From NCBI RefSeq assembly GCF_000300875.1, contig NZ_AMSG01000004.1, forward strand, positions 124,001 to 188,000: a stretch of 64,000 bases of DNA, given 5' to 3'. The notes beneath the pieces are model-generated. The model did no database searches, was not told where the DNA came from, and was given only the letters and a program-made list of their open reading frames with translations. This stretch comes from Galbibacter marinus. GTDB lineage: Bacteria > Bacteroidota > Bacteroidia > Flavobacteriales > Flavobacteriaceae. This document shows, in pieces, positions 2,839-41,414 of this stretch (the first letter of the stretch is position 1; every line of letters starts with the position of its first letter). A program made the translations under genes and the position numbers.

Positions 2839-5199
2839 ATGGAAACCAATATTATTTATCTGCCTATTATCATGGCCATTATCGGCCTTATATTTATGGT
2901 CGTTAAAGCTGGATGGGTTAAAAAACAACCAGCTGGAAGCGATAAAATGCAATCAATCTCAAAGAGTATAAAGGAAGGAGCGCTCGCTTTTCTTAATGCA
3001 GAGTATCGATTGCTGTTTATTTTTGTAATTATTGCCTCGGTAGCTTTATTTGGGATATCAGTACTTGTCCCTACAACTAGTTGGATGATTGTACCTGCCT
3101 TTATCTTTGGTGCTTTTTTTTCTGCTTTGGCTGGAAATATCGGGATGCGCATTGCCACAGAGGCCAATGCTAGAACCTCGGAAGCGGCCAAAACTAGTCT
3201 CCCTCAAGCTTTAAAAGTATCCTTTTCAGGAGGAACGGTAATGGGACTGGGTGTTGCAGGTCTTGCTGTACTAGGACTCAGTTTATGGTTCTTATTTTTC
3301 ATTGGACAATTTGTTGGCTCAAGTGCAGATTTCTACAGCGATATGACCATTGTTCTAGAGGCTCTGGCCGGATTTTCTTTAGGAGCTGAATCTATAGCAT
3401 TGTTTGCTAGAGTAGGTGGAGGGATCTACACCAAGGCAGCAGATGTGGGTGCGGATTTAGTAGGAAAAGTAGAAGCTGGAATTCCTGAAGATGACCCACG
3501 AAACCCCGCGACCATTGCTGATAATGTTGGTGATAATGTTGGAGACGTGGCAGGTATGGGAGCTGATTTATTTGGCTCTTATGTGGCTACAGTGCTCGCG
3601 GCCATGGTACTTGGGAATTATATCATCAGAGATATGAGTGTTGACACTCCATTTGTGGATGCCTTTAATAATATGGGACCTATTTTACTTCCTCTGGTGA
3701 TTGCTGGAGTAGGTATATTGGCCTCCATTATAGGAACCTTTCTTGTGCGTATATCTAGTAATGATGCCCGAGAAGCGCAGGTTCAAAGAGCTTTGGATAC
3801 AGGAAATTGGGTGGCTATTGGACTTACCTTACTCTCTAGTTATTTTTTGATTCAGTATATGCTTCCAGAGATGATGTATATGAATTTATTTGGTAGGAGT
3901 GAAGCTGTTGCTGTTCCCTCTATCAACGTGTTTTGGGCGGCTTGTATTGGACTCGCTGTTGGTGCATTAATTTCGTATGTAACTGCTTATTATACAAGTT
4001 TAGGTAAAAAACCAGTGATGGATATTGTACAGAACAGTTCTACGGGAGCTGCTACTAATATTATTGCTGGATTGGCTGTTGGTATGAAATCAACCTTTTG
4101 GTCGGTATTGTTATTTGCCGTGGCTATTTATGGATCTTATGAATTGGCTGGATTCTACGGTGTTGCGTTGGCTGCATCTGCAATGATGGCAACCACCGCT
4201 ATGCAGTTAGCAATCGATGCCTTTGGGCCTATTGCAGATAATGCAGGAGGTGTGGCTGAGATGAGTGAATTGGAGCCTCAGGTTCGTGAGCGTACAGATA
4301 TTTTGGATTCTGTGGGTAATACCACTGCTGCTGTAGGTAAAGGATTTGCGATAGCCTCTGCTGCATTAACTGCTTTGGCCTTGTTTGCAGCCTATGTGAC
4401 CTTTACTGGTATCGATGGGATTAATATTTTTAAAGCCGATGTGTTAGCGACGCTTTTTGTGGGTGCTATGATCCCAGTAGTGTTCTCCGCCTTAGCTATG
4501 AAGTCTGTCGGTAAAGCAGCTATGGAAATGGTTCAGGAGGTGCGCAGACAGTTTAGAGAAATTCCAGGTATATTAGAAGGTACGGGAACCCCAGAGTATG
4601 GAAAATGCGTGGAAATATCCACCAAAGCAGCTTTAAAAGAAATGCTTCTACCTGGCTTGTTAACTATAATTACCCCCATAATCATCGGATTGCTTTTAGG
4701 GGCTGAACCACTCGGTGGCTATATGGCTGGAGTTTGTGTATCAGGAGTTATGTGGGCGATATTTCAGAACAATGCTGGTGGTGCATGGGATAATGCAAAA
4801 AAATCCTTTGAAGCTGGAGTGGAAATCGATGGGGAAATGACCTATAAAGGTTCTCCTGCACATAAGGCAGCCGTTACAGGTGATACCGTTGGGGATCCAT
4901 TTAAGGATACCTCTGGGCCTTCTATGAATATTTTGATCAAACTCACCTGTTTAGTAGGACTGGTAATTGCTCCTATTCTTGGCGGACACCACAATGATTC
5001 TGCTGAGGTGGTGGATCATAATCAACAACAAAAAGTTATTAGTGTGACTCTTGCCTCAGAAAAAGATGGTCAAACCACAGCTACAATTAAAACCCTAGAA
5101 GTTCAAAGTGGTAAAGAAATCGCAAGTGAATCTATCATAGGTGGAACATCTGAAGAAATACAACAAACGATAGAGAAAGTAAAAGGGACTATCGAATAA
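2839..5199 (+). CDS. hppA: Membrane-bound ion-pumping pyrophosphatase
   Basis: Integral membrane enzyme that couples pyrophosphate hydrolysis to cation export. The 786 residues contain many membrane segments and the family hallmarks [18 protein letters not shown] and [18 protein letters not shown]. The motif [10 protein letters not shown] has Ala where K+-independent enzymes carry Lys, which predicts potassium dependence. The gate glutamate found in Na+ pumps as ADLxESY is missing (ADLFGSY); instead Glu184 occurs in GAESIALF, where most homologues have Ser. This suggests the displaced-glutamate subclass and proton transport (inference). A hydrophilic tail of about 70 residues follows the last membrane segment. 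It sits directly behind ppa, separated by a terminator. Confidence 0.95.
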
Positions 5200-33589: not shown

Positions 33590-34390
33590 TTACTTGATGC
33601 TGAACTCTGAAGGTTTCCGAACCAAATATCGCATTAGAATTCTTCGAATATCACGGTTATCTTGTCTGTAGGAGATATAATCTAAGAGCTGCTCTTTAGG
33701 AGTGTCAATTGGACAATACCCAAATCCCTTATATACGCCGTTTTCTATGTAAACTATTCCCATTTCACTTTCTTGTCTTCCTGGTAGTTTACAAAGTTGG
33801 GTAGTTATCTTTGGATATTGATCGGAGATAAAACGGTCAACTCTTTGGTTGTATAATTCTACAGGTTCCTGACCTATACATGCACCATTGCAAGATTTGA
33901 TTTGATATTGAAAACACGAAGTGGAGGATTTGTAGAGTCCGTTTATTTTTTGGCACAACTGGTAGTTTTCTGTGATCCTGTATAAAGCCTCTTTAGCTTC
34001 TAGAAGTGAGCAGAAAGTTGTAAGCTCCTCATTTCTTTGATTGATTTTTTGAATGCCTAAGCTCTTATATCCATTAACTTCGTTTATATACAAACCATAT
34101 TGATATAGAGTTCGACGTTGTGCTCTATTGTATATAGGTTTGTGTTTTTTAATTAAATCGGATTCATAAAGAAGCGCAATAAGTTCACTTCCAGTGATCT
34201 CATAATTGATCTTTTTAGTAAAATGCTGTAGTTTAAAAGATTTTCTGTCTCTACCTCCAAAATGCTGTTTTACCCTTTTCTGAATATTTATGCTCTTTCC
34301 AATGTAAATAAGATGGTCCTCATTGTCATAAAAGAAGTATACTCCAGGGAGAGATGGAAGATTTGATATTTGTGAACTTATACTGATCAA
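33590..34390 (-). CDS. GIY-YIG nuclease protein lacking the exonuclease half
   Basis: A 266-residue protein. The GIY-YIG domain is at the N-terminus (LPSLPGVYFFYDNEDHLIYIGKSINIQKRVKQHFGG), followed by a UvrC/Cho-like region (ELIALLYESDLIKKHKPIYNRAQRR) with a Cys-containing segment (CFQYQIKSCNGACIGQEP). Many Flavobacteriia have this module behind a DnaQ-like exonuclease; here only the second half is present. No ATG is available: the frame starts after a TAA 30 bases upstream, and the likely start is TTG at 34390. A minus-strand -7 element lies at 34423-34430. It may be a functional short form or a truncated gene. Confidence 0.8.
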   Translation of the reverse strand: MISISSQISNLPSLPGVYFFYDNEDHLIYIGKSINIQKRVKQHFGGRDRKSFKLQHFTKKINYEITGSELIALLYESDLIKKHKPIYNRAQRRTLYQYGLYINEVNGYKSLGIQKINQRNEELTTFCSLLEAKEALYRITENYQLCQKINGLYKSSTSCFQYQIKSCNGACIGQEPVELYNQRVDRFISDQYPKITTQLCKLPGRQESEMGIVYIENGVYKGFGYCPIDTPKEQLLDYISYRQDNRDIRRILMRYLVRKPSEFSIK

Positions 34391-34422
34391 CTGCCTTTTT
34401 GGAGTGTGGATTAATTATAGCA

Positions 34423-34430
34423 CAAAGTTA
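34423..34430 (-). promoter_or_regulatory. -7 promoter element for the GIY-YIG gene
   Basis: CAAAGTTA on the plus strand is TAACTTTG on the minus strand. It predicts a transcript start near 34416 and a leader of about 27 bases to the TTG at 34390. Confidence 0.4.
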
Positions 34431-35024
34431 ATCATTTTCTTTTTCTCGTATTGATACATAAGATCCGTTCTAGTCTTAAAGAAGTGAGGTTGTAGATGGA
34501 AATGTGGTAAGCTATCACAGACTAAATTATTAAATTCCCTGGCAACTGTTGGGCTAATGTTTGAGGTATTAGGGACTGAAATCACGAACGATAATATATT
34601 TCTTACAATTATCATTGATAAATCCTATATGTTGTCAGATTATTTTGTAGTTTTAATTCTTTAAATTTAATATTGTTTTAAAAGAAAATTTAACCAGAAA
34701 TCAATCAAATCGAAACCATGAGAATTCGTGTGTATTACAGTGCTTTTCTATAGAAGCATTCAAAATGATCATCATTCAACCAATTAAGAATGTAGACTTT
34801 TTGAAACGATCCTTGATTCCCCTTCCTTATCCCCCCTTTTTATATTTTCTATGATGTGGTCCTCCACATTATAGAGTTATAGCCTAATGGTTTTTTCCTT
34901 TGGCTAATTTGTATTTAAATATTCTGTCTTCCCTAATGCGATAAGAATTTGGAGAGACTGCGTTTTTTTTGAGTATCGAATCAACATAAAACAACTATCA
35001 TAATTAACCAAAAAAAAAGAATCT
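34431..35024. other. Gene-poor interval before the tail-collar gene
   Basis: About 590 bases with no convincing gene. The 66-residue minus-strand ORF of the track (34415-34615) overlaps the GIY-YIG promoter and matches nothing I recognise. The most distinct feature is the imperfect palindrome at 34849-34874. The segment just before 35025 is A-rich, as is usual for flavobacterial translation starts. Confidence 0.5.
34849..34874. repeat. Imperfect palindrome upstream of the tail-collar gene
   Basis: CTATGATGTGG (34849-34859), TCCT, CCACATTATAG (34864-34874): 10 of 11 positions pair. It lies 150 bases before the tail-collar ATG, with no T tract, so an operator or a structured leader is more likely than a terminator. 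Confidence 0.45.
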
Positions 35025-35561
35025 ATGGAACCATTTTTATGTGAAATTAAATTATTTGCGGGAAACTACGCTCCTAGGGGATGGGCTTTTTGCAATGGAC
35101 AAATCCTTCCAATTTCTCAGTACCAAGCTGTATTTACTATTTTAGGATATACCTACGGTGGCGATGGAAAAACGACTTTTGCACTACCAGATTTAAGAGG
35201 AAGGGTTCCAATTCATACTGGAGCAAGCACAGGACCTAGAGCGCGTGAAGTTCGATTGGGCGAATCCTCTGGAAGTAACGATAATACTCTTACTATAGGT
35301 AATTTACCAAAACATAATCATCCTGTTTTTGCGAATAATCAACAAGGAACTTCAGGGAATCCAACTGATAACTTTCCAGCAAATTCAGGAGCGTCAGATA
35401 AAGAGTATACTGACAATTCTAATACTTCTATGAATCACCACATGACTGGTTTAGTTGGTGGGGATCTGCCTGTAAATAACATGCAGCCTTATCTAGGACT
35501 CAATTTTATTATTGCACTTTATGGAGAATTTCCAAGCCATGATCAATCATACCAACCTTAA
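35025..35561 (+). CDS. Phage tail-collar/microcystin-dependent protein homologue
   Basis: A 178-residue protein of the tail-collar (MdpB-like) family: MEPFLCEIKLFAGNYAPRGWAFCNGQILPISQYQAVFTILGYTYGGDGKTTFALPDLRGRVPIHTG, then LGESSGSNDNTLTIGNLPKHNHPV and NNMQPYLGLNFIIALYGEFPS. In phages this domain is at the receptor-binding end of tail fibres. In bacteria it occurs as free-standing proteins of unclear role, often near surface proteins. No signal peptide is evident. No other phage genes are near. The next gene starts 10 bases after the stop, so it forms the first gene of a three-gene unit with a large secreted protein and an OmpA-type protein. Confidence 0.9.
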   Translation: MEPFLCEIKLFAGNYAPRGWAFCNGQILPISQYQAVFTILGYTYGGDGKTTFALPDLRGRVPIHTGASTGPRAREVRLGESSGSNDNTLTIGNLPKHNHPVFANNQQGTSGNPTDNFPANSGASDKEYTDNSNTSMNHHMTGLVGGDLPVNNMQPYLGLNFIIALYGEFPSHDQSYQP

Positions 35562-35571
35562 CTTTTTCCTC

Positions 35572-38500
35572 ATGAAAAATAAATTACTTCTATTTTTTAT
35601 TATAACCTTGTTCTCTGGTTTTCATAGCCAAGGATTTGGGCAGGATATTACCATGATAGTATGTCAAAATGCCAATTTCAGCTCTTCTTATTCACTTACA
35701 GCGAGCGGTACGATCACTGATGATGGAATTTCGCGTACTACTTATATGAGCGATCCTAATGTAGGAGATTTTGGGGATATGATCATTATTAAGTGGAATA
35801 CTACATTAGATCAGTGGGAAATTTTATTTAACAACTTCGATGGTGGAGATGGCCCTGCCAATGAGTTACAATATTATAGTTCAAATGCAACTTTTCCTAA
35901 TCCGCCCAATATATCAATTGGCAATTGGATAACAGTAGGTGAATTTGCTTGTGATCCTATGGTTCAATTAACTGGGGATGTTGCAGGGATTAACAGTGAT
36001 CCTACCGTCACAGGCTTACCCCTATCTATTACCGTGGATGAAGATTCTAATGAGGAGCCATTGGGTATATCTTCTACGCTTATAGATGATGTTGACGCAG
36101 GCGGTGGTGCATTGACTTTGAAATTCGATGCTACGGGCGGTATTTTTGATATTGCTGCCGGTACAGGAGTTACTCTATCTGGAAATCTTAGCAATCATTT
36201 AGAAATTACAGGGAATATAGGGGACGTAAACCATTATATAAGTGTGCTTTCGAATATTTACTTTAGACCTGACAGTAATCTATATGGCAACAATGCGGCT
36301 AGTGTAGATGTTTATATTAACGATAACGGAAATACAGGCACTGGTGGTGGAAATGATATTTTTGTGGGAACCATTATAGTTAATATTACTGCGGTTAATG
36401 ATGCTCCCGATATATCCGTTCCTAGCTCCATTAGTGCAATTGCAAATACCGATACACCTTTGACAGGAATTAGCATAGAAGATGTTGACGCTGAGGATGG
36501 AGAATTATCTGTCTCTATTGGTATTGTTGCTGGGACATTATTAGCTTTGCCGAGTGGCGGGGTGAGTGTGAGTGGGAGTGGAACAAATCAACTCTCTCTT
36601 CAAGGCTCGCTTTCAGATTTAAATACATTTCTGGCAAGTTCTAATATCATCTTTAAGAACGAACCTGATAATATCGATGATCAAACGCTCACTGTCTCTG
36701 TTAATGATAACGGAAATACTGGAGGTGATCCTTTGATTTCAGAAGATACAGCAACTATAATTCTTGCCCAGCAACCTGCTGAAATTAGTAGTGTTTCGGT
36801 TCCTCCCAGTGGTTCATACGGTTTGGGAGAGGAGCTTGATTTTATTGTTAATTACAATAAGCCTGTAAATGTAAACACATCTTCAGGTACACCTGAACTT
36901 GTTTTGCAAGTAGGGGGCCAAGCTAAAAATGTCCCTTATATGTCGGGAAGTGGCTCGACAAGCCTTGTTTTTCGTTACACTGTTGTAGAGGGGGATGAGG
37001 ATGACGATGGAGTGCTTGTGGAGACACTATTACTTAATGGCGGTACTATTACAAATGAAGGAGTAAATTCAAGTCTAGTACTACAAAATATTGATAATAC
37101 TGAAAATGTAATGGTTGATGCGGTTGCTCCTTCTGGGTATGCAATTACGATTGATCAAGATCTCATCCATGTGGGGAATCAAACTGAGATAAGTTTTACC
37201 TATAGTAATGCTGAAGTTGCAACAACCTATACATATATAATTACAAGTCTTCAAGGTGGAGGGACAGTTAATGGAACGGGTCAAGTTCTTACCTCAACGG
37301 ATCAGGTAACAGGATTAAATTTAAGTAATTTAAATGATGGTGTTGTTTCTATTTCTTTCATGCTTGAAGACGCAAACGGTAATATTGGTATACCAGTGGT
37401 GAGCACCATTTCAAAACAAACCAATCATGCCCCAGTGGCTTCTGATGATCATCATAGTTTGGGTGTTAATACTAATCATATTGCAAATGTTTTGGATAAC
37501 GATAGCGATGGAGATGGTGACAATATAGATGCTTCCTTGGTTGATTCTCCTTCTAATGGAACTATTATATTTAATGTCGATGGTGAGTTTAACTACACCC
37601 CAAATACAGATTATGTTGGCTTAGATAGCATAAGTTATAAAATCTGTGATGACGGAATCCCAAGCTTGTGTGATACAGCTGTTGTTTACTTTGAAGTTTT
37701 GGATACGAATATCCCCACTGGATATTCAGTGGCTTGGGCAGAAGAATTCATCAATGAATCAGAGGCCAATGCAGCTGCTTTTAAAGTGTCAGATGCTACT
37801 GTTGGTGCCACACTGAATTACCAGGTGTCCAGTAATGGGGATGGCAACAGCCAAATTATTTCAGGCAGTCAAATAGTTACAAGTATAGAAGAAGATTTTA
37901 TGGTAGATGTAAGTGGCTTACAAGATGGGACCTTAACAACTGAAATTTTCTTAACCTCTATATACGGCACCCCTGGAATAACTACAAGCGATTCCAATGC
38001 AATTTTAGATCAAACCGCACCTTCTGGACATACTGTAAGTATTGATCAAAATCCGATAGATAGAGTAAATCAATCAGCTGTTAGTTTTACCATGTCCTCA
38101 TCTGAATTAGAAGCTCACTATGATTATACCCTCTCAAGTACGCAAGGTGGACAGGATGTTACGGGTTCAGGTGTAGTAACTTCTCAGACCCAAAGTGTTA
38201 CAGATATTGATTTAACTAACTTAGCTCAGGGAGATATTACGCTCTCTTTAATTCTCACAGATCGTGCAGGTAATATAGGAGATCCTGTCAATACTACTTC
38301 AATAAAAATCACCAATGAAGCTCCTACGGTTTCTGATATAGAAGTTAACGGTTCTTTAATTATCACAGAACAATTATCGGCCAACTATGTATATGCTGAC
38401 TCTGATGGGGACCCTGAAAGTGGTTCTACCTATTTGTGGTATCTCTCTGAGGATAGTTCTGGTGCAGGGAAGTCAGAAATCCCTAATGGGACAGCTTCGC

Positions 38501-40068
38501 AGTATACCCTTAAGCAGAGTGATCGAGGTAAATACATTAGTATTGCAGTTACTCCTAGCGATGGACGTGATGTTGGTACTACAGTTGAAAGTCCTTTAGT
38601 AGGGCCAGTGAAAATGGTACAAAACATTACTTTTCCTAGCATTTCTGAAAAGACCTATGGTGATGCCCCATTTATCCTAGGTGACGCTCAAACCGACCAA
38701 GGCCTAGCCGTGATTTACACAGCCGCAGATCCCAGTTTGATAGAGATCAATGGGAATCAGGCCACAATACTCAAAACTGGAACTACGACCATTACCGCAA
38801 CCCAAGAGGGAGATGACCAAACAAGTGCAGCTGAGCCTATCGCACAAACGCTTATTGTTAATGCTGTGCTTCTAACAATAGAAGCTGATAATTTTTCTAA
38901 AATATATGGTGAATCTGATCCCGAATTATCGGTAAGTTATAGTGGATTCATAAATGGTGATGATGAGACTTCTCTTGATGGAAGCCTTGTTGTCAGGCGA
39001 GCAGAAGGAGAGTCAGTAGGTGATTATCCAATTTCTGTTTCGGGTTATACTTCTGATAAGTACACCATCAATTATGTGGATGGGAATTTCGATATTCAAC
39101 CAAGATTGCTTAGTATCATTGTAGATCCAAATCAAAATAAAGTTTATGGGCAGGATGAGCCACAATTAAGCTATACTGTACAAGGGTTTTCAAATGGAGA
39201 CGATCAAGGTATGATGCAAGGGGATTTATCTAGAGAACCTGGTGAAGATGCTGGTCTTTATGCTATAATCATAGGAACCTTAAATGCAGGAAACAACTAT
39301 GAACTTCAAATAGAGCCTTCAGAATTTGAGATATTAAAGGCAGAACAAGCAATTGTTTGGAACCAAGAATTAACTTTTGGTTGCAACTCTGATTCCCAAG
39401 TAACATTATTAGCAGAATCTAATAGTGGACTTCCTATTACTTATATGGTGGAGGACTCTTCTATCGCTGAGGTAGAAGGTAATGTTTTAACCAAACTTCA
39501 ATCAGGAGTTACTACAATTTCTGCTCAGCAGCTTGGGGATCAAAACCATCATGCTGCACCGGAAGTTCATAAAGAAGTTCAAATTAACCAACAAGGGTTG
39601 ATTCGTCAGCATTGGGATGATGTACTAGTTTTTGATAATAGTAGTGAGAATTTTGTCAGTTATCAGTGGTATAAAAACGGTAATGCTATCCCAGGGGCAA
39701 CCAAACAGTATTATTCAGAAGAGCAGACTTTAAATGGAGAATATTATGTAGTAGCCACTATGGAAAATGGTGCGCAAATCACCTCCTGCTTATTGGAAGT
39801 TTCTCAGCAAAGTGTTACCAACACTTTAAAGGTAGTTCCCAACCCTGCCCTTGGCAGCTCAGAGTTTAGCATAAAGGCTAGTTTTAATCAGGAAGCACTT
39901 AATGGAGCCACTATTAGTTTAATAGATCTTAATGGACGTGTTTTGCAGACCACAGCGGTAACAGGTGAGCAAACCACCATGATTGCTCCCTCACAAACAG
40001 GAATCTATATTGTAGTTATGAACCTCTCAGATGGAAAGAGAAAAACAGTTAATCTTTTAGTACAATAG
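35572..40068 (+). CDS. Giant secreted multi-domain protein with type IX sorting signal
   Basis: A 1,498-residue surface or secreted protein. The ORF-track start (35512) lies inside the upstream gene; ATG at 35572 gives a good signal peptide (MKNKLLLFFIITLFSGFHSQGFGQ). Visible modules are two cadherin-like repeats with NDNGNTG motifs (about 135-400), and two ~97-residue repeats beginning APSGYAITIDQ and APSGHTVSIDQ. Between these two repeats lies a cadherin-like/Big_9 segment (NHAPVASDDHHSLG...VLDNDSDGDG). Then come a bacterial Ig-like segment, two MBG/YDG domains (SKIYGESDPEL, NKVYGQDEPQL), and a C-terminal sorting domain (VVPNPALGSSEFSIKA...GIYIVVMNLSDGKRKTVNLLVQ). No catalytic domain is recognised, so an adhesin or matrix role is inferred. 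The next gene begins 2 bases later. Confidence 0.88.
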   Translation: MKNKLLLFFIITLFSGFHSQGFGQDITMIVCQNANFSSSYSLTASGTITDDGISRTTYMSDPNVGDFGDMIIIKWNTTLDQWEILFNNFDGGDGPANELQYYSSNATFPNPPNISIGNWITVGEFACDPMVQLTGDVAGINSDPTVTGLPLSITVDEDSNEEPLGISSTLIDDVDAGGGALTLKFDATGGIFDIAAGTGVTLSGNLSNHLEITGNIGDVNHYISVLSNIYFRPDSNLYGNNAASVDVYINDNGNTGTGGGNDIFVGTIIVNITAVNDAPDISVPSSISAIANTDTPLTGISIEDVDAEDGELSVSIGIVAGTLLALPSGGVSVSGSGTNQLSLQGSLSDLNTFLASSNIIFKNEPDNIDDQTLTVSVNDNGNTGGDPLISEDTATIILAQQPAEISSVSVPPSGSYGLGEELDFIVNYNKPVNVNTSSGTPELVLQVGGQAKNVPYMSGSGSTSLVFRYTVVEGDEDDDGVLVETLLLNGGTITNEGVNSSLVLQNIDNTENVMVDAVAPSGYAITIDQDLIHVGNQTEISFTYSNAEVATTYTYIITSLQGGGTVNGTGQVLTSTDQVTGLNLSNLNDGVVSISFMLEDANGNIGIPVVSTISKQTNHAPVASDDHHSLGVNTNHIANVLDNDSDGDGDNIDASLVDSPSNGTIIFNVDGEFNYTPNTDYVGLDSISYKICDDGIPSLCDTAVVYFEVLDTNIPTGYSVAWAEEFINESEANAAAFKVSDATVGATLNYQVSSNGDGNSQIISGSQIVTSIEEDFMVDVSGLQDGTLTTEIFLTSIYGTPGITTSDSNAILDQTAPSGHTVSIDQNPIDRVNQSAVSFTMSSSELEAHYDYTLSSTQGGQDVTGSGVVTSQTQSVTDIDLTNLAQGDITLSLILTDRAGNIGDPVNTTSIKITNEAPTVSDIEVNGSLIITEQLSANYVYADSDGDPESGSTYLWYLSEDSSGAGKSEIPNGTASQYTLKQSDRGKYISIAVTPSDGRDVGTTVESPLVGPVKMVQNITFPSISEKTYGDAPFILGDAQTDQGLAVIYTAADPSLIEINGNQATILKTGTTTITATQEGDDQTSAAEPIAQTLIVNAVLLTIEADNFSKIYGESDPELSVSYSGFINGDDETSLDGSLVVRRAEGESVGDYPISVSGYTSDKYTINYVDGNFDIQPRLLSIIVDPNQNKVYGQDEPQLSYTVQGFSNGDDQGMMQGDLSREPGEDAGLYAIIIGTLNAGNNYELQIEPSEFEILKAEQAIVWNQELTFGCNSDSQVTLLAESNSGLPITYMVEDSSIAEVEGNVLTKLQSGVTTISAQQLGDQNHHAAPEVHKEVQINQQGLIRQHWDDVLVFDNSSENFVSYQWYKNGNAIPGATKQYYSEEQTLNGEYYVVATMENGAQITSCLLEVSQQSVTNTLKVVPNPALGSSEFSIKASFNQEALNGATISLIDLNGRVLQTTAVTGEQTTMIAPSQTGIYIVVMNLSDGKRKTVNLLVQ

Positions 40069-40070
40069 CC

Positions 40071-41414
40071 ATGGAAAGTATAAAAAAACAATATCAGATG
40101 AAAACAGCACTATTTGCAGTATTTTTTATAATTACAATGATTATTGGACAAGCTCAGGAGCTCTCAGTTTCTGTACATGGCGGAGTCTCTGGTTTATCCT
40201 ATAAAAGCGATGTTGGGGAAGGTAAACAAGGATTAGGCGGCGGAATTGGACTGGAATATACACACTACTTTAGTGGTCATTGGGGTGTTTTAACAGGTGT
40301 GGAGGCCCGTTATAATAGCAATACCTTTGAGCTTGATGACAATGTGCAGTTTCTGTCCAATGAAATCGATGATAGGGGTTCAGCTTTTGAATATCGCGTG
40401 AGAACAAGTGGATATGAAGAAGATCAGAGATTTTACTCCTTCGGAATTCCAGTTATGTTACAGTATCGAGGCGCTATTTCTGATAAAACGGGTTTTTACA
40501 TAGGGCTTGGAGCAAAAGTATTGCTGAGTCAAAAACTTAAGGCAGATGCTCAATCGAAAATCATGGATCTTAGGGGATATTATCCCGATTTAAATCTAGT
40601 GATCGATGATCTTCCATCTCATGGATTTGGAACCCTTAATGATTGGGAAGGGGATGCTGAGGTTTCTCTAAAAACCTCCATATTGCTAGGTTTAGAAGGT
40701 GGTTTAACCTTTAAGTTAAAAGAGAATCTGAAATTATATACAGGGATTTACGCCGATTATGGCCTCAGTGACATGCAAAAAGATAATACGGCTTCCAACA
40801 TAGTAAGTTACAATCCTGAATCCATCCAAAGTGTTATCTCAAATGGCGTATTGTCCCATGAGATTATCGTGGAAAAAAGCAATTATCTCTCTGCTGGGGT
40901 GAAGTTAAAGCTAGGATTTATGCTTGCAAAAACTAAACAGGCCCCGACAAAGGAAATTATGGAACCAGAAGAAGTGGTTCAAACGAATCAACCAACCCAG
41001 ATAGTAGAACAAGAGGTTGTAGTAGCGGAAGAAGTAGAACCTCAGGAACATGTGCTTTCCGATGAGCAAGTGGCCTATATTGAGCAACCTTTAGTCTTTG
41101 GTGAAATTGATAAAGCAGATGTTCCTTCATCGCTGCAAGCGCGATTGGATTCCATCGCGAAATTAGTGAATGATAATGCAGGTGTAAATATTAAAGTAAC
41201 AGGGCATACTTGTGATCTTGGAAGTGAGTCCCTTAACCAGCAAGTTGGCATGAAAAGGGCAGAAGCGGTGGCCGAATATCTTAAAACTATTGGGGTGGCC
41301 AGCGACCAAATGGAACTGGAGTCCAAGGGTGAGTCTGATCCTGATTTCCCAAATACGACAGCTTTAAATAGAGGGAAAAATAGAAGAGTCACTATAGAGG
41401 TGTTAACTCAATAA
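40071..41414 (+). CDS. Outer-membrane beta-barrel protein with C-terminal OmpA domain
   Basis: A 447-residue envelope protein. The signal peptide is MKTALFAVFFIITMIIGQAQ (Met10; starting at 40098 would give a more usual n-region than 40071). It is followed by a porin-like barrel of about 280 residues (GLEYTHYFSGHWGVLTGVEARYNSN, FYIGLGAKVLLSQKLKA). A Gln/Glu/Pro-rich linker leads to an OmpA peptidoglycan-binding domain (about 345-445: VNIKVTGHTCDLGSESLNQQVGMKRAEAVAEYLKTIGV, LNRGKNRRVTIEV). Two bases separate it from the giant protein gene, so both are co-expressed. It may anchor or help export that protein, as PorP/SprF-OmpA proteins do for other type IX substrates (inference). Confidence 0.88.
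   Translation: MESIKKQYQMKTALFAVFFIITMIIGQAQELSVSVHGGVSGLSYKSDVGEGKQGLGGGIGLEYTHYFSGHWGVLTGVEARYNSNTFELDDNVQFLSNEIDDRGSAFEYRVRTSGYEEDQRFYSFGIPVMLQYRGAISDKTGFYIGLGAKVLLSQKLKADAQSKIMDLRGYYPDLNLVIDDLPSHGFGTLNDWEGDAEVSLKTSILLGLEGGLTFKLKENLKLYTGIYADYGLSDMQKDNTASNIVSYNPESIQSVISNGVLSHEIIVEKSNYLSAGVKLKLGFMLAKTKQAPTKEIMEPEEVVQTNQPTQIVEQEVVVAEEVEPQEHVLSDEQVAYIEQPLVFGEIDKADVPSSLQARLDSIAKLVNDNAGVNIKVTGHTCDLGSESLNQQVGMKRAEAVAEYLKTIGVASDQMELESKGESDPDFPNTTALNRGKNRRVTIEVLTQ

Follow-up and report, generated by a model that had tools for sequence, protein, structure and literature searches.

The window, a stretch of 64,000 nucleotides of Galbibacter marinus DNA, carries three genes on the same strand, which encode a small phage-tail-collar protein, a giant secreted protein and an outer-membrane barrel fused to an OmpA domain (Table 1). 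The ORF coordinates leave gaps of 10 and 2 bases between them and, together with the domain assignments, bear out the three closely spaced genes of the preliminary description. An in-frame ATG at 35542 is an alternative start of the giant gene, which would then overlap the collar gene. Just 5' of the collar gene the + strand holds no match to the Bacteroidota-type promoter motif TAnnTTTG, the counts of which are at chance level. The flanking genes that were scanned are host genes for housekeeping functions, gliding (GldB) and the cell wall. No phage genes were found among them, in line with the earlier remark that the phage-fibre-like domain stands without other phage genes. A stand-alone GIY-YIG protein like the UvrC N-terminus/Cho nuclease is encoded upstream on the opposite strand (33590-34390).

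In a profile search of the genome, the collar was the only match to PF07484. Given that the collar is present in just one of seven species of the genus, the three-gene unit is accessory. In the other species the genes that flank the locus lie apart from each other, so that no empty site could be demonstrated by comparison with them.

Table 1. Features of the three-gene locus, in positions of the window
Feature	Position	Strand	Residues	Remarks and basis
Collar gene	35025..35561	+	178 aa	MdpB/COG4675-like, without signal peptide; PF07484 E=4.6e-28; PHROG tail families
PF07484 collar domain	35043..35210	+	aa 7-62	confidently modelled part
P-x-H-x-H motif	35307..35321	+	aa 95-99	PKHNH; candidate metal site of putative trimeric fibre; read from sequence
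Giant T9SS substrate gene	35572..40068	+	1,498 aa	ORF list, domain matches
N-terminal Sec signal peptide of giant	35572..35643	+	about aa 1-24	read from sequence
Big_9/cadherin-like domain of giant	37423..37653	+	aa 618-694	
MBG_2 domain of giant	38872..39090	+	aa 1101-1173	best of two stretches
Pre-CTD Ig-like domain	39571..39819	+		profile A5; common to barrel-linked giants; alignment
T9SS type A C-terminal sorting domain	39835..40062	+	aa 1422-1497	TIGR04183
Outer-membrane barrel fused to OmpA domain, gene	40071..41414	+	447 aa	PF13568 + PF00691
Beta-barrel, about 10 long strands	40158..40922	+	aa 30-284	predicted structure
OmpA/Pal-type peptidoglycan-binding domain	41109..41384	+	aa 347-438	PF00691 1.8e-15; Foldseek

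The giant begins with MKNKLLLFFIITLFSGFHSQGFGQ and contains a Big_9 domain, two MBG_2 stretches and a sorting domain (CTD) of type A of the type IX secretion system (T9SS). The CTD scores 30.1 bits with TIGR04183 (cut-off 23) and 22.4 with PF18962, under the cut-off of 27 of that model, and at E<=0.001 the type A model was the only CTD model of NCBIfam to match, with no type B domain found. The genome encodes SprA, the T9SS translocon (TIGR04189, 2,843 bits, G000:C1). With its N-terminal Sec signal, its TIGR04183 domain and SprA in the same genome, the giant has the make-up of a type A substrate, and its export through the T9SS is predicted.

For the barrel-OmpA protein, the structure predicted with AF2 (mean pLDDT 87) displays in order about 10 long strands, a flexible linker and an OmpA/Pal-type domain, which in Foldseek matches Pal and the C-terminal domain of Capnocytophaga OmpA. 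The barrel matches PF13568/PF13505 and OmpA families only, with no PorP/SprF-type match. Close full-length relatives, at 45% identity, were found in only 2 of 200 other genomes of the family, and both (L051, L052) have a giant directly upstream. Barrel and OmpA domain form one protein only in the window, in these two loci and in L188-L190, and most barrels have no OmpA domain. Through this fused domain the protein would be anchored to peptidoglycan, and the modelled barrel would suit an anchor or receiver of the giant better than a channel for its export.

A search with a profile of the barrel detected more copies, in 24 of 398 genomes at the level of the order, and every fetched locus with an intact barrel has a giant next to it on the same strand, whole or cut by the contig end. 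These barrel-linked giants vary in length, from 1,341 to 4,598 aa, and in their N-termini, but they keep a C-terminal module: the last ~170 residues are common to all of them and to the giant of the window, and comprise an Ig-like domain of ~80 residues, for which there is no Pfam model, followed by the CTD. A profile of this pre-CTD domain gave 38 matches in 27 of 29 genomes and a barrel adjoins all 38, one of these barrels, beside the second G405 copy, being truncated. The remaining two genomes have neither the domain nor the barrel. In a 396-genome sample of the phylum, 20 matches to the pre-CTD domain and 20 strong matches to the barrel fall in the same 16 genomes, most of them already known from the earlier searches. 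The fresh one, G800, belongs to another family, and its barrel gene precedes that of a 952-aa giant by 19 bases; hence the pairing survives an altered gene order. Since the pre-CTD profile was built from barrel-linked giants, only 12 of its matches are fresh tests, and these copies from outside the profile, one of them in another family, are paired with a barrel in 12 of 12 cases. Furthermore, barrel distances correlate with those of the CTD at r=0.91, against r=0.81 for a region further upstream, a correlation that in part reflects plain common descent. The core of the system is thus the giant with its barrel, the OmpA fusion and the collar being recurrent add-ons, and the tail of the giant probably binds the barrel. 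The OmpA protein had been put forward as export partner or anchor of the giant; its one-to-one pairing with the pre-CTD domain lends good support to an anchor or partner, and a model of about 10 strands makes a channel unlikely.

Known T9SS substrates are of type A, with PorV as shuttle, or of type B, with cognate SprF-like shuttles. The arrangement at the locus resembles SprB-SprF and PG1035-PorP-PorE, in which a large T9SS surface protein likewise comes with an adjacent cognate barrel gene and an OmpA-type part, here a putative peptidoglycan binder. In contrast to these systems, the CTD here fits the type A and not the type B model, barrel and putative wall anchor share one chain, an Ig-like domain is conserved before the CTD, and the barrel is of the PF13568 kind with about 10 strands whereas the PorP/FadL type has 14. 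Given the type A CTD, the non-PorP-like barrel and its strand number, the pair is not a member of the SprB/SprF/PorE family. Five operons with a type B substrate, an SprF-like and a PorE-like gene are described in F. johnsoniae (PMC12618676; PMC9143113). A looser analogy would be AtaA-TpgA, where the gene of a giant adhesin adjoins that of an OmpA-domain protein; however, the NCBIfam TpgA model matches only the OmpA domain of the barrel-OmpA protein, no trimeric autotransporter is found here, and export would be by the T9SS. In the part of the literature covered by our search, neither the pairing of pre-CTD domain and barrel nor the collar linkage is described, and we found no paper that connects the collar with the T9SS, or with Bacteroidetes and secretion.

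The collar protein matches T4 gp12, the T4 gp37 tip and the fibre of cyanophage A-1(L), both by sequence profile, with E down to 2.5e-10, and in Foldseek. In T4-type fibres metal is bound by HxH motifs, and the PxHxH motif is kept in 218 of 228 collars. The monomer model is reliable for the first 60 residues only, and its poor quality beyond them is what would be expected of an interwoven trimer modelled as a monomer. The collar shares the collar fold and the HxH motif with these phage fibres, but it is a stand-alone chromosomal protein of 178 aa without phage context; the nearest phage proteins are less than 41% identical to it, whereas bacterial ones reach up to 57%. In its PF07484 domain, PxHxH motif, stand-alone gene and size it agrees with the bacterial 'microcystin-dependent' collars of about 170-190 aa (MdpB/COG4675), for which most of the literature gives no function. 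Those often occur in tandem copies, whereas here a single copy lies directly before a T9SS giant. A collar domain is also carried by RhiB of the rhiABC operon (PMC13133039). At five other loci (L056 at 4291-4662, L057, L059, L084 and L085) a gene of ~123 aa directly precedes the collar, and one copy of it weakly matches the trimerisation domain of T4 gp34 (E=0.0013), with no such match in the other scanned copies.

The collar of the window has no Sec signal peptide, as is the case for 221 of 234 collars, and neither a hidden signal peptide nor a missed gene was found before it in 34391-35025. The clade closest to it, however, consists mostly of collars that carry a Sec signal; in a 3,367-aa exported protein (L208) a collar domain lies close to the N-terminus, there are also several smaller collar proteins that are exported, and the exoproteome of Ruegeria pomeroyi includes a PF07484 protein (PMC4949626). 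In light of the Sec-bearing clade, the collar domains in exported proteins and this exoproteome, a role outside the cell is the better guess. The T4 gp12/gp37-type fold, the conserved PxHxH motif and the exported relatives make the proposed tip or ligand-binding part plausible. A conserved second context of collars, mostly ones with a signal peptide, is the site just downstream of the IF-2 gene (L060, L064, L070, L077, L078, L081, L105), where in L077 and L078 a small protein with a T9SS tail or of giant-like kind comes after the collar.

Collars and giants are neighbours far beyond the window. Of 80 GTDB collar loci, 32 have an ORF of 900 aa or more on the same strand within 300 bp, against 5 of 136 control genes taken from the same loci, and an exported-looking giant lies within 1.5 kb in 40 of the 80 collar loci across bacteria. 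In the family set, the supposed giant was the IF-2 gene in some of the counted cases, and these were removed. The 21 collar-linked giants that were scanned contain Big_9/cadherin repeats, SLH domains (Paenibacillus) or IPTL-CTERM-like motifs, and collar-linked giants carry the surface anchors of their clades, such as SLH in Paenibacillus and T9SS signals in Bacteroidota, where the order collar before giant is common. Several collar-linked giants from non-Bacteroidota phyla (L109, L110, L114, L130, L135, L149, L152, L156) share a similar C-terminal end of ~50 aa, like LPGYAG...NT...GF.GGAACPTP, possibly an unrecognised sorting/docking signal. In one of them (L109, 'midcut') an IPTL-CTERM/XrtH-type motif stands at aa 161-187, near the N-terminus and not at the C-terminus.

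The three genes had been taken for one unit, and the trio does recur in other genomes. One or more collars, a giant and a barrel with the same OmpA fusion are found together in L188-L190, and with a barrel without OmpA domain in L055-L057, L199-L203, L205, L217 and L218. The unit is therefore real and recurrent, but not obligate: where the flank is covered, 15 of 28 giant-barrel loci include a collar in their cluster, in some directly beside the giant and in several with one or two genes between, and the other 13 have none. The collar is also absent from the two genomes in the family sample with the closest barrel-OmpA genes (G021, G144), where no degenerate collar was found upstream of the giants. 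Accessory genes are frequent in collar-giant clusters (L059, L063, L074, L075, L079, L082, L088, L090, L188-L190, L199-L203). They encode a ~182-aa protein with a twin-arginine leader and a faint likeness to intradiol dioxygenases, proteins of ~340 aa that in some cases faintly resemble methyltransferases, a Peripla_BP_6-like protein that has no signal peptide, and a protein resembling formyltransferases.

The reading that we prefer, and to which we give about even weight for and against, is a contact or adhesion device in which a T9SS giant is held by a dedicated barrel with a fused wall anchor and the collar serves as a ligand-binding or capping trimer at the surface. The giant and its barrel, with or without the OmpA domain, could instead be the entire device, the collar being unrelated or loosely linked, for instance through a shared preference for the accessory islands that hold large surface-protein genes. 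Collars found without giants, the loci, genomes and congeneric species that lack one, all fit this; nevertheless, the excess of collar-giant adjacency over the controls, its recurrence in unrelated phyla with unrelated giants and the 10-base gap at the locus speak against it, and we consider it rather unlikely. The lack of a signal peptide in the collar of the window and in most others, along with the frequent collar-before-giant order in Bacteroidota, would suit an intracellular or periplasmic helper in folding or assembly of the giant that is not displayed. Such a helper is unlikely, given that most of the closest collars carry Sec signals, that collar domains occur inside exported proteins and in the Ruegeria pomeroyi exoproteome, and that T4-type collar domains are receptor-binding tips.

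A prophage remnant was rejected on the scanned host-gene flanks and the low phage identities. A wider origin as remnant of a phage or of a phage-derived injection machine, to which the PF07484 and PHROG tail-family matches could point, is very improbable as well: the collar is repeatedly linked to surface giants and not to phage genes, and the homologous loci so far lack tail tube, baseplate and sheath genes. Equally improbable is a barrel that acts as a two-partner-like export channel; an outer-membrane barrel gene does adjoin the giant gene, but the modelled barrel is too narrow for protein passage, and the giant bears a T9SS signal in a genome that encodes SprA.

In the preferred contact or adhesion device, according to the domain models and the presence of SprA, the giant would pass the inner membrane via Sec and the outer membrane via the type IX system. 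At the outer membrane, the dedicated barrel from the neighbouring gene would then hold or receive the Ig-like domain and type A signal of the giant, and would itself be tied to peptidoglycan through its OmpA domain; barrel and wall anchor would thus work in one polypeptide, in a manner likened to SprB-SprF or PG1035-PorP-PorE. The collar, given its fold, its recurrent linkage and its exported relatives, would work with the giant at the surface, where it may form a metal-bound trimer of the T4 gp12/gp37 type as ligand-binding or capping part. The net function would be contact with, or adhesion to, a surface, a polymer or a cell.

Since a paired barrel and a collar recur beside giants, the trio looks like a poorly described surface-attachment system. 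A broader and rather doubtful proposal is a further class of T9SS substrates and partners with an Ig pre-domain, a CTD of the type A family, a small barrel of its own and a captured T4-type collar trimer as tip, the same collar being used beyond Bacteroidota with giants that are anchored otherwise. If a type A-like signal is indeed always paired with its own barrel, this would be a new and directly testable matching rule. The 'microcystin-dependent / phage tail collar' proteins are widespread on bacterial chromosomes and mostly without a function, and the collar-giant linkage gives them a first role that can be put to the test.
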